Of a stretch of DNA of 35,437 nt, positions 7,856 to 12,837 are shown piece by piece. Positions within the stretch are counted from its first letter, which is position 1, and each line of letters starts with the position of its first letter. The notes below the pieces were generated by a model. It worked only from the letters and a program-made list of their open reading frames with translations, did not search any database and was not told the origin of the DNA. A program made the position numbers and the translations under genes. The stretch comes from Candidatus Wildermuthbacteria bacterium. Lineage in GTDB: Bacteria > Patescibacteriota > Minisyncoccia > Minisyncoccales > UBA10102. The stretch is taken from positions 1-35,437 of the forward strand of contig JACQMR010000013.1 of the NCBI GenBank assembly GCA_016203455.1, given 5' to 3'.

Positions 7856-7952
7856 CCCTTACCTCCCGCATAGTAAACAAACTATGCGTACGCATCATTT
7901 GTTCACCTTTGATCGCTCCCCAACTTGGTTCCAAGTCAATCCTTAACCCTCA

Positions 7953-7998
7953 ATCCTTAACCCCGTTAAGTTATCCACACCTTAACGGGGTTAAGGAT
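7953..7998. repeat. Hairpin with DnaA-box-like loop (element E2)
   Basis: ATCCTTAACCCCGTTAAG-TTATCCACAC-CTTAACGGGGTTAAGGAT: 18-bp perfect stem, 10-nt loop. Confidence 0.92.
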
Positions 7999-8013
7999 GA
8001 ACTAAAGAGGTCC

Positions 8014-8063
8014 TTAAACTTGGTCGGGCCAAGTTATTCACACCTTGGCCCGACCAAGTTTAA
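8014..8063. repeat. Hairpin with DnaA-box-like loop (element E3)
   Basis: TTAAACTTGGTCGGGCCAAG-TTATTCACAC-CTTGGCCCGACCAAGTTTAA: 20-bp perfect stem, 10-nt loop. Confidence 0.92.
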
Positions 8064-8081
8064 AGGGCGGTTAAGGATAAA

Positions 8082-11075
8082 CTAAAAGGAACAAATCTTG
8101 GAACCGGAGAAGAAAGTGGAGGCGTTGCCGGATAAAAATAGATCTGTCAAAACCGGACACGCGCCAAGCGCTATGCGAAACGCGTACGGATTATCTACTA
8201 AAGAAACAAAAGATCCGGTTATAGCCCCGTTATACGAACGGATTGCCGCAGACCCGCTATTTTGAATGGTAACATTCTTCAAATCCACGCTTCCTTTGTC
8301 CGCGAATAACGCTCCGCCGCCAAGCTCGCTTCCTCCTCTGCGCAAAACCGCGTGCTCCAACACGGAACCGGAGCTGGTGGAAGTAAACCACATTCGCTTC
8401 CACCAGCCGTTTTCCGCGTACGGCCCAAACTCCACCGGGCGTTCCTGCGTTCCTTGCGCCAAAAGTTTGCCGTCAATGGTTAACTGCGGCCCGCTCTGCG
8501 GCGAAGTGATAAACTTTATGTCCACGCCCTCTTTAAGAGTGAGCGTCGCGCCCGCGTGTATGGTAAACGAGTTCAAAAGATACGGTATGGCGTCTGCTTC
8601 CAGCGTCATATCTCCCGCGATTCCGCCTTCCACATAAATACCGTTATACGCATTGTCTTGGGCAGTATTGCCGGAAAGCGACGCATTGCCGCCGTTAAGT
8701 TTTACGGGATATGTGTTGTTCAAAAATATATTGTTTTGAATAACCGGGCTCGGCAAAGATCCCCCAACGGAAATACCCGTATAACTACCAGAAATAGTGG
8801 AATTTTTAATTACGGGGCTCCCGCCTTTTACATATATGGCAGAAGAACCGTTATTCCAGGTTGCCCCGGATATGGAAACAGCATCCACCACCGAGTTTGA
8901 ATTGCTAAGATACAGCTTTTGATGCTCGTTTCCCTTTTCTATAATCACGCGAGAAAAATTCACGGAGGACTGATCAGCAAATATCGCGTAATGAAACGGC
9001 GCGTTGCAATACCCCGAAATAATGCTTGAAGCGTCTTTCACGCGAACAAAAGACAGTTCAGAATCAACGCTTGAAGGAGCAAACTTAAGCCCGCACCATC
9101 CCACATGATCGCCTTTCGTAAACACAATCTCATTGTCCCGATCTCCAATCGCCCGGAGAGTCCCTTGCACATCCAAAGCATTATTCATGCGCACGGTAAC
9201 TCCCGGCTCCACCGTCAGCGTTTTCCCTTGCGGAACAGTACCCGCCGACCCCGGAATATAATATGGCTGGCCAAGTTTTGTGAGCGTCATGGCGTCAAAC
9301 TCATTCCACCTCAAAGAGTCAACCCGCGTATCGCGCGACGCAACGCTGTTTTGCGCCCTTGGCGTTCCGTTAATCGTTTTACCACTCGCGTCTTTCCCGT
9401 TGTATTTCAAAAGATTATTACTCGCCCAATTTGCGGGGTCTGACCCCGCTTTTGCCGAACTTATCCGTTCCATTGTTTGTTTCGCGGAATTACTGCCCGC
9501 GAACCAGTTCACAGTTGAATCTACAATATCAACAAGAACGCCATCTGCATTATACAGCCGCAATTCTTCCCCATCGTTTCCCAAAGCTCCGGTATAGATA
9601 TGGTCAGTCGCGATTGTGAAAACCGCGGTATCGTCTGTTCGTTCCAAAAAGAAATAGCCGCCAGCGAGAATGCTTTTCCCCTGCGGGAAAATAATGTCCG
9701 GCGTACCGTTGCCCGCAACCAAACGCCAGCCGGAAATATCCACCGCTTCGGTTCCTGGGTTATGCAACTCCAGCCATTCATCGCTGGCGGAAGCACCGGT
9801 ACCCATCCACGCGATCTCGTTTATCACAACGGATTTTAACAGTTTCACGCTTGTTTGAACTTCGGCAACCCCGCTCTGATTCCCCGCGCCATCCTCGGCC
9901 CCGGCAAAAAATGAATACGCCTCCTCGTCCCGGCCCCATAACGAAATATACCTGGATTCTTCCGAAAAATTTAAAACGCCTTCTTCTCCGGAAATCCATT
10001 CTTCCCACGCGCCCGGCTCCTTCTCGTAATAAAGCGCGCCGGTGTTCTCGCCAGCAACATACGACACAAAAACCGCGGAAACGCCGCTTACCGGAGCATC
10101 GTCCGCTTCTTTATCTTCCGCAACCCACGACAAAACAAAGAAAACGCTGTTTTGCGTTTCCAAAAGTTCCCCAAAAACTACGGTCGGGGAGCTGGTATCT
10201 TGCGGAACCTCCGCGATTTCCACTATCTCCGTGGCATTATCCTCATTTTCTTCTTCAATGTCCTCGTCATTCTCCAAATCTTCCGCAAGAATGTCGTCTT
10301 CTTCGTCATTCACATCCTCGGCAGTCGGCCCTTCTTCAACAATTTCTGCCTCGTCTTCTATTATAATTTCATCAACAATTTCTTCGTCATCTTCAGTATC
10401 GTCTGGTGCCACGGAACTTACGATATCCTCTTGAGGAACTTCGTTGTTATCCTCAATCAAAACCGCTTGTTCCGCGCTATTTTCCGCCCCCGGAGTCCCG
10501 ACTCCATTCTCTCCATCTCCATAATAGGTATGCCACAATAAATCCTGCCCCCGCTCTAACGAATCTTTTGTTTCGTTATTTCCTCCGGGCCAATCCGGTT
10601 CCGCTATAACTTCATCTATCAGCTCGCATGCGTTGTTAAAAAGCCGCAACGATTCTTCCGTATTATTAAGGCCGCCCGTATAAATCTTGCTGGCTGAAAT
10701 ATCAGCAACGGAAGAATCGTCGGTGCGTTCCAGCAGATAAAACCCGTTTGCAAGAATACTGTCTGACTGTTCAAAAACAACCGCGATCTGCTCATCTTTA
10801 TCCAGCAACTGCCAACCAGATAAAACAACCGGTTCGTTGGTAAGATTTTTTAGTTCTATCCATTCATCGTTCGCCGATACCAAGGTACCCATCCACGCGA
10901 CTTCGTTAATAATAACCGGCGAGCGCGCGGGACCAGCAAGATTGTTTTGAGAACAAATTTGAACTTCCGTTTCTACCTCCAATACAGGGTCAACTGCGGG
11001 GGGGGGGGGGGGGCGAATGCGGTAATAACGCGGACGGACCGCCACCTCCAGAAATACCGGCGAGCGCGCCCACAT
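8082..11075 (-). CDS. LTD repeats, acidic linker and right-handed beta-helix region; probably the 3' part of one gene with 10990..12837
   Basis: Two LTD motifs (VIINEVAWMGTLVSANDEWIELKN; VVINEIAWMGTGASASDEWLELHN) and beta-helix repeats (SPVIKNSTISGSYTGISVGG...). The listed N-terminus MWARSPVFLEVAVRPRYYRIRPPPPP is out-of-frame overlap with the upstream ORF. Confidence 0.8.
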   Translation of the reverse strand: MWARSPVFLEVAVRPRYYRIRPPPPPAVDPVLEVETEVQICSQNNLAGPARSPVIINEVAWMGTLVSANDEWIELKNLTNEPVVLSGWQLLDKDEQIAVVFEQSDSILANGFYLLERTDDSSVADISASKIYTGGLNNTEESLRLFNNACELIDEVIAEPDWPGGNNETKDSLERGQDLLWHTYYGDGENGVGTPGAENSAEQAVLIEDNNEVPQEDIVSSVAPDDTEDDEEIVDEIIIEDEAEIVEEGPTAEDVNDEEDDILAEDLENDEDIEEENEDNATEIVEIAEVPQDTSSPTVVFGELLETQNSVFFVLSWVAEDKEADDAPVSGVSAVFVSYVAGENTGALYYEKEPGAWEEWISGEEGVLNFSEESRYISLWGRDEEAYSFFAGAEDGAGNQSGVAEVQTSVKLLKSVVINEIAWMGTGASASDEWLELHNPGTEAVDISGWRLVAGNGTPDIIFPQGKSILAGGYFFLERTDDTAVFTIATDHIYTGALGNDGEELRLYNADGVLVDIVDSTVNWFAGSNSAKQTMERISSAKAGSDPANWASNNLLKYNGKDASGKTINGTPRAQNSVASRDTRVDSLRWNEFDAMTLTKLGQPYYIPGSAGTVPQGKTLTVEPGVTVRMNNALDVQGTLRAIGDRDNEIVFTKGDHVGWCGLKFAPSSVDSELSFVRVKDASSIISGYCNAPFHYAIFADQSSVNFSRVIIEKGNEHQKLYLSNSNSVVDAVSISGATWNNGSSAIYVKGGSPVIKNSTISGSYTGISVGGSLPSPVIQNNIFLNNTYPVKLNGGNASLSGNTAQDNAYNGIYVEGGIAGDMTLEADAIPYLLNSFTIHAGATLTLKEGVDIKFITSPQSGPQLTIDGKLLAQGTQERPVEFGPYAENGWWKRMWFTSTSSGSVLEHAVLRRGGSELGGGALFADKGSVDLKNVTIQNSGSAAIRSYNGAITGSFVSLVDNPYAFRIALGACPVLTDLFLSGNASTFFSGSKICSF

Positions 11076-12837
11076 CTACCGCGGGATTGTAATCCACAAG
11101 CATATCCCTGCCGTTTGTTTGGCGAGGCGATCCAAAACTTTGCCCGTCATAGGTATACCACCCCAAACTCCTGCCGTCCCGCTCCATGGATTTTTTGATC
11201 ACGCTGTCTCCGGCGGGCCAATCGGTCATGGCAAAAACCTTATCTCTCAAAACGCAATCCGCATCAAAAAGATACATCGCTTCGTCTGTGTTGCTCAAAG
11301 CGCCGGTATAAATATAATCCGCAAAAACATTTGGAACAGAATCATCGTCTGTTCTTTCCAAAAGAAAAAATCCTTTTGGCAAAATACCATGCGCGCCTTC
11401 AAAGACAATGCTAATCTGCCCGTCTTTATCTAAAATCTGCCACCCTTTGAGATTAACATGGTCTCCCGCCGTATTTCGCAATTCCATCCATTCGTCATTC
11501 GCGGATACCGGAGTTCCCATCCACGAAATCTCGTTAAAGATTACGCTCCCAATAAAAGGGTTAGCGGCAGGGTCAATCTTGCAAAATCCGGATTCTTTCA
11601 CCGCCTCTTTGGGTGTTTCTTCTATTTTTATTTCTTTTGGCTCGAGTGGCACGACCTTATTTTCCTGCGTTATCGGAATTACCTCAATTGGAACAACCTG
11701 AACTTGAGGCAAAGCAACAACGGGCAAAGGCGCGATAACCACCTTACCCTGATTAATCTGCGATAAGTTAGATTTTACAACAGAACCTGACTCTTCTTGC
11801 GCAACTTCTGCAATTTTAGCTTCATCCTCAACGGGGTTAAGGATTTTATCTTCTGCCGTATCTAAAACCTTTTCTGAAATGCCCGCCCCAATACCCGGAA
11901 TAAACTGAACCAAAACGGAAGAAAGATTCTCCACCGCGTTCTTCACAAACTCCACCCCCTTTGCCAACCTGTCAAATGTCTCAAAACCAAGCCCCCCGAT
12001 TGATTCTAAAACCTCTTGTATCGTTGTAAGTTTATTCAAAAAATTGATCTTCTGCTCCTCTAAAGGATAAATAAGTTTGGGAGAAAGCTCCAAGACGGGG
12101 ACTTTGGCCGGGAAACCCACAGAAATATATAGATCTTTAGATAGAAAACTCCATACTGAACCATCCTTCACAACTCTTCCTTCCACTCGCAATACAAAAG
12201 GATCTATTGTTTTTTTGCCCTTGGCAAGCCAATCTCCTTTCTCCCATGGTAATTTTCCAGTAGAGGACTCAAGCGGGGGACTAATAGAATCTGCCGAATA
12301 AAACTCAAGAGTAAGATTTGTCCCCCTTACAACATTTGCGTTATATAAAACCAAATACTGAAATCTTGCAGTCGATTCTTCGCCAAAATGCGAAGTATAT
12401 TTTGTAGAAAACTCTCCGGTTGCAGAGTAAATCTTATTAGCTACGAGCCAATCCGTACCAGCTTTAACCGCCTCATCGACCGCATATTGCTCTATTTTTC
12501 CTATTATCTCTCCAAGAGTTATCGTAGCAATCTCTTGGAATGATTTTGCACCTGCCAAAACGAATTTTACTGTTTCGGTAGATATGAAACCAGGAAGAAA
12601 TTGAACATAACTTTTTATAATTTCATTACGAATCATGAAAATAGCGAGCTGCTGTTCCGGCAAAAATTCAACAAATTGTAAAGTTCCTATCTTTGTTAAC
12701 TCTCCAGAGAGTACCGACAAAAGTTGCATAGTTTCAAGCCGAGACAATACAAACTCTCTCTCAGCTTTAGCAGGATCTGGAAAGACTAATATTCCAAGAA
12801 AAATTAATAGTGTGCCTAAAAACTTAAATCTAGACAT
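10990..12837 (-). CDS. Exported LTD protein, 5' part; ends just after the poly-C tract
   Basis: Signal-peptide-like MSRFKFLGTLLIFLGILVFPDPAKA; LTD motif VIFNEISWMGTPVSANDEWMELRN; ends ...GGGGPSALLPHSPPPPPRS*. Confidence 0.8.
   Translation of the reverse strand: MSRFKFLGTLLIFLGILVFPDPAKAEREFVLSRLETMQLLSVLSGELTKIGTLQFVEFLPEQQLAIFMIRNEIIKSYVQFLPGFISTETVKFVLAGAKSFQEIATITLGEIIGKIEQYAVDEAVKAGTDWLVANKIYSATGEFSTKYTSHFGEESTARFQYLVLYNANVVRGTNLTLEFYSADSISPPLESSTGKLPWEKGDWLAKGKKTIDPFVLRVEGRVVKDGSVWSFLSKDLYISVGFPAKVPVLELSPKLIYPLEEQKINFLNKLTTIQEVLESIGGLGFETFDRLAKGVEFVKNAVENLSSVLVQFIPGIGAGISEKVLDTAEDKILNPVEDEAKIAEVAQEESGSVVKSNLSQINQGKVVIAPLPVVALPQVQVVPIEVIPITQENKVVPLEPKEIKIEETPKEAVKESGFCKIDPAANPFIGSVIFNEISWMGTPVSANDEWMELRNTAGDHVNLKGWQILDKDGQISIVFEGAHGILPKGFFLLERTDDDSVPNVFADYIYTGALSNTDEAMYLFDADCVLRDKVFAMTDWPAGDSVIKKSMERDGRSLGWYTYDGQSFGSPRQTNGRDMLVDYNPAVDVGALAGISGGGGPSALLPHSPPPPPRS
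10998..11013. repeat. Homopolymer G16 on + strand (C16 in the coding strand)
   Basis: Read directly: ctgc-GGGGGGGGGGGGGGGG-cgaatg at the junction of the two LTD ORFs. Confidence 0.9.

Follow-up and report, generated by a model that had tools for sequence, protein, structure and literature searches.

Two adjacent open frames in a Candidatus Wildermuthbacteria genome (the host genome below; the window is the whole stretch of 35 437 nucleotides that was analysed) appear from sequence comparison to be the two parts of one gene for a large secreted protein, interrupted at a run of 16 cytosines. The explanation that we favour, at somewhat better than even chances, is that the run is a real slippage-prone tract that was assembled at an OFF length, and that production of the protein would be stochastically switched ON and OFF. 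Phase variation of this kind is unproven but is the most likely explanation: the tract lies far outside the run-length distribution of the genome, the gene is intact in relatives, and its downstream half is undecayed. Against it stand the origin of the sequence in a single assembly, an incomplete draft, the lack of a second tract of this type in the host genome, the lack of conservation of the tract, and the position of some other long G/C runs in our survey at contig ends, where assembly artefacts are plausible.

The interrupted gene and its neighbours

Seven relatives (G022, G017, G001, G003, G008, G015 and G048) carry single ORFs of 1477–1595 aa. Both halves of the interrupted gene match one ORF in G022 (1477 aa), G017 (1521), G001 (1550), G003 (1524), G008 (1523) and G048 (1574), and in G015 (1595 aa) the match spans residues 410–1584. 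The lamin tail domains (LTDs) of G022 and G003 are three in number and ordered as in the host gene, with linkers that contain no long run. Because single long ORFs are found in many relatives and the gene order is conserved, the reading of the two frames as one gene rather than two, of about 1584 aa as the initial annotation had proposed, is strongly supported by these comparisons. Homologues consistently present as separate genes were looked for and not seen among the relatives, whose continuous ORFs rule out a conserved pair of genes. Two genomes are exceptions to the single-ORF pattern, with breaks at places other than the C16 tract: in G013 (L061:12674-12756) the orthologous LTD gene changes frame in a proline linker of CCN repeats before the last LTD, and in G010 (L062:12640-12760) the last LTD seems to have suffered a deletion that breaks the gene. 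Both breaks may be assembly faults.

By Pfam search each ORF contains an LTD match, the downstream one in two stretches and together with a beta-helix (Table 1); the matches to PF00932 (LTD) score 35.5 and 96.4 bits against a curated cut-off of 34.3. The close relationship claimed earlier for the first two LTDs holds, since they are about 50 % identical (row G000:C8:11104-11607), and alignment with relatives puts the break, as had been described, within the short and variable linker that joins them. A signal peptide (MSRFKFLGTLLIFLGILVFPDPAKA) can be read by eye on the upstream ORF only, in agreement with the annotation. The downstream frame has more than 960 open codons past the tract and retains conserved residues up to the last cysteine, and thus shows no sign of decay. 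The fold model of the upstream ORF is poor (pLDDT 53), and that of the downstream ORF gives general resemblances to Ig/FnIII, LTD and beta-helix folds, of which the beta-helix is modelled confidently. The signal peptide and the adhesin-like domains, as read from sequence and model, would be compatible with an environment-facing product, and a role in surface adhesion or recognition, as predicted from such architectures, is probable.

Table 1. Positions in the window of the interrupted LTD gene, its domains and its conserved neighbours
Feature	Position	Strand	Remarks
Upstream ORF, 615 aa	10990..12837	-	Signal peptide, N-terminal family domain, LTD1, stop just past tract; proposed OFF-state product
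Downstream open frame, 997 aa	8082..11075	-	8082-10997 (3′ of tract) is the C-terminal half of, probably, the same gene
C16 homopolymer	10998..11013	-	Pro5 codons in LTD1-LTD2 linker; proposed slippage site
LTD1	11242..11550	-	Upstream ORF residues 430-532; Pfam
LTD2	10605..10916	-	Downstream frame approx. residues 54-157; Pfam, sequence comparison, model
Acidic linker	10221..10472	-	Approx. residues 202-285, from translation; low model confidence
Ig/FnIII-like domain	9846..10187	-	Approx. residues 297-410; fold resemblance only
LTD3	9519..9833	-	Residues 415-519; Pfam; lamin-B1 tail domain among Foldseek matches
Right-handed beta-helix; C terminus conserved, two Cys invariant	8106..9293	-	Residues 595-990; Pfam, alignment, model
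Conserved neighbour, 222 aa	12840..13508	-	No Pfam match; directly upstream of LTD gene in most relatives
Conserved neighbour, 267 aa	6426..7229	-	Weak DeoR-type HTH match, just under Pfam cut-off
Conserved neighbour, ECF-type sigma factor, 170 aa	5646..6158	-	Gene-order comparison
Conserved neighbour, 260 aa	4779..5561	-	No Pfam match
Conserved neighbour, large protein, at least 1466 aa	1..4398	-	No Pfam match

The neighbourhood of the LTD gene, which is kept across the order with varying completeness, runs ClpC-like ATPase, 220-aa protein, LTD gene, HTH protein, ECF sigma factor, 260-aa protein and very large protein. We note that the LTD gene and its 222-aa neighbour are bracketed by hairpins at window positions 7950–8065 and about 13534, and that there are 13 such hairpin sites in the genome. 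The stems of these hairpins differ from one another, are perfect and are 11–22 bp long, and they share a loop, TTAT[CT]CACA(C), that resembles the DnaA-box consensus; a stem of at least 8 bp accompanies the loop motif in 13 of 41 instances (control motifs, 0 of 18). A stretch inside the LTD ORF (11829–11848) resembles one hairpin arm (CCTTAACCCCGTT), much as it would if the coding sequence had taken up a repeat.

The C16 tract and its expected stability

The tract consists of exactly 16 G residues on the forward strand, corresponding to C16 on the coding strand, and it splits the ORFs in the manner first described, the upstream frame ending in HSPPPPPRS and a stop codon with the downstream frame open. 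Simulated tract lengths of 13, 14, 15, 16, 17, 18 and 19 give products of 614, 620, 1584, 615, 621, 1585 and 616 aa respectively, so that within this range only lengths 15 and 18 give readthrough; recomputing the frames thus reproduces both the joined protein claimed for C15 or C18 and the truncated one claimed for C16, with its signal peptide as read by eye. By this computation (lengths 13–19) the repeat number decides whether the frame yields the complete or the truncated product: every third length is ON, and either wrong frame runs into a stop within about 10 codons.

The rarity of such a tract in this genome is evident from the host assembly (519 161 bases, all stretches), in which G/C runs of length 7, 8 and 9 number 27, 4 and 1, falling about 4.5-fold per added base, followed by the single run of 16. 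The longest A/T run is 9, and the C16 tract is the sole homopolymer longer than 9 in the 519 kb; about 6 × 10−5 G/C runs of 16 or more are expected by a Markov estimate, which places the tract beyond chance. Proline runs elsewhere in the genome use mixed codons, and only the run encoded by the tract is all CCC. The tract is known from one assembled sequence, in a draft that is 83 % complete.

No G/C run longer than 10 was found in 99 other loci with LTD relatives. The suggestion that the poly-C tract be sought in related genomes has thus yielded no orthologue that carries one, and the absence of a long run from the linkers of relatives indicates a lineage-specific expansion rather than a conserved element; with poly-C in 0 of 99 loci, conservation of the tract at that linker is ruled out. 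A scan of genome contigs gave 79 LTD loci but no conspecific genome, and the searches found no other genome of the host species or genus. The flank of the tract, searched against viral contigs in case the locus occurred there a second time, gave no match.

Neither MutS (MutS_V, PF00488) nor MutL (DNA_mis_repair, PF01119) was detected in any of 24 genomes (the host and 23 relatives), while each was found in 11 of 14 control genomes. Nineteen of the 24 are at least 90 % complete, and these more complete relatives of the host (83 %) also lack both. A 16-base tract should be very unstable when MutS and MutL are not detectable. Deep sequencing in Neisseria meningitidis found most homopolymers of 8 bases or more to be variable, and the strong candidates for phase variation there were chiefly G/C tracts (PMC5084427). 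Taken with the failure to find MutS and MutL, this variability leads us to expect, by extrapolation from other organisms, that the C16 tract should vary, and the length of the tract and the absence of both proteins make slippage at this site likely.

The mechanism that we propose is as follows. One gene would encode a secreted protein of about 1584 aa with three LTDs, an Ig-like domain and a beta-helix, and in the host lineage the proline-rich linker between LTD1 and LTD2 would have turned into a 16-base mono-C tract. Without MutS and MutL, replication slippage would frequently add or remove one or two bases of the tract. At C15 or C18 (ON) the whole protein would be made; at other lengths (OFF) translation would stop just past the linker, leaving a fragment of 614–621 aa without LTD2, LTD3 and the beta-helix, and OFF cells would lose everything beyond LTD1. 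The deposited consensus is probably one OFF length among several in the population. Variation in tract length, reversible switching and action of the protein at the surface are all inferred.

Long G/C tracts in other genomes

The best parallel, and to judge from the sequences an independent one, is a secreted-protein gene in G520 (L192:5985-7075, minus strand) in which a run of 19 G (G19), within a glycine-rich linker, divides the coding sequence between two frames; in relatives such as G597 (L211) the matching region is one continuous frame with mixed glycine codons. Surveys found G/C runs of at least 12 in 11 of 247 genomes of the order and runs of at least 13 in 16 of 384 genomes of the class, and several of these lie at contig ends and are doubtful. 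Of 18 tracts in contig interiors, 8 lie within, or a short way upstream of, a gene whose start resembles a signal peptide, against a background of 21 % (p = 0.024, or p = 0.053 after one tract beside an N-gap is dropped). Since this test was post hoc, its rule for signal peptides was crude and its background came from one genome, the apparent excess of long G/C tracts around secreted-protein genes is only suggestive.

Runs of 13–15 G occur at L178, L175, L191, L187, L190, L184 and L189 (in G336, G350 and G289), most of them just upstream of secreted-protein genes. At L178 the run is flanked by TTGACT and TATCAT, in the manner of a promoter spacer, and G289 has several near-identical copies, some at contig ends, with a common arrangement of TTATCCACACC, poly-G and TATACT. 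At L085, L086, L168, L180 and L077 long G/C runs adjoin genes that resemble reverse transcriptases, lying at the 3′ end of the gene, shortly before it or about 70 bp after it, and at L085 and L086 a secreted-protein gene follows the run. It is possible, though we regard it as doubtful, that in Patescibacteria without mismatch repair long poly-G/C tracts in linkers (the C16 gene and G520) and upstream of secreted-protein genes (for example in G336, G350 and G289) constitute a general ON/OFF system for surface proteins.

Alternative explanations and known systems

A 16-base G/C run is difficult to count, and the homopolymer could have been miscounted, being either a constant 15 or in part a sequencing or assembly artefact, with the gene intact. 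The absence of decay in the downstream half and the location of some long G/C runs of related drafts at contig ends would fit such an error, but we consider it unlikely: the run is in mid-contig between the halves of one gene, in a linker of ordinary length, the conserved neighbouring genes are unbroken and have the sizes expected of them, so that the assembly has no obvious indel problem, and even a true C15 would be expected to slip without MutS and MutL. Somewhat less likely still, in our view, is a recent fixed frameshift in which the tract drifted to 16 and left a young pseudogene in the host lineage. Such an event would agree with the tract being private to the host genome and with the broken genes of G013 and G010, but the downstream frame has no second lesion, the gene and its neighbourhood are conserved across the order, and a C16 change would readily revert.

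Long homopolymers also promote transcriptional slippage, an effect established in bacteria and endosymbionts for runs of A/T. RNA polymerase slippage on C16 (or ribosomal frameshifting) could yield some full-length protein and make DNA switching unnecessary, and it would account for the intact downstream frame; we give it only a slim chance as the usual substrates are A/T runs, and it is compatible with DNA slippage too. That there are two genes, the downstream one translated alone as a non-secreted protein, is largely refuted and hardly credible, for although the downstream frame has in-frame start codons, with the ATG at 11075 opening inside the upstream ORF, a beta-helix/LTD protein would then lack a signal peptide, and seven relatives have one ORF.

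If slippage-driven phase variation is the correct explanation, a classic contingency mechanism would be added to those of the Patescibacteria, in the form of a poly-C tract that switches a conserved surface protein with three LTDs in a genome where MutS and MutL were not detected. Split LTD genes in comparable draft genomes may be single genes. The Patescibacteria are thought to be largely small episymbionts, and to our knowledge little has been learned of their surface variation. Campylobacter and Helicobacter have many poly-G/C contingency genes and lack standard mismatch repair; the host genome resembles them in its G/C tract and in the lack of standard mismatch repair, but has one tract where they have many. 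Other LTD proteins of the Paceibacteria (e.g. Wildermuthbacteria, L088) belong to the same family and often have the same neighbourhood, although theirs is one uninterrupted ORF with linkers free of long homopolymers.

Homopolymeric switching is an already known mechanism, and the Patescibacteria are a group for which no earlier report of it was found in the open-access literature searched, which leaves out most subscription journals; the only relevant paper describes a hypervariable surface protein of a Gracilibacterium with PTD repeats, in which 9-mer repeats and synonymous variation occur without frameshift (PMC6851277). The C16 gene likewise belongs to a CPR bacterium and has a predicted extracellular product with a repeat-based, putatively variable stretch, but its repeat is a homopolymer with a frameshift and not a set of 9-mers. 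From the phase-variable genes of N. meningitidis it differs in being a single tract rather than one of many, in lying in a proline linker in the middle of the protein, and in belonging to an uncultured Patescibacterium for which one assembled length is known; it shares with them a coding mono-G/C tract in a gene for a surface protein, here a putative one; some lengths of the tract read through while others truncate, and the tract is long enough for instability (PMC5084427).
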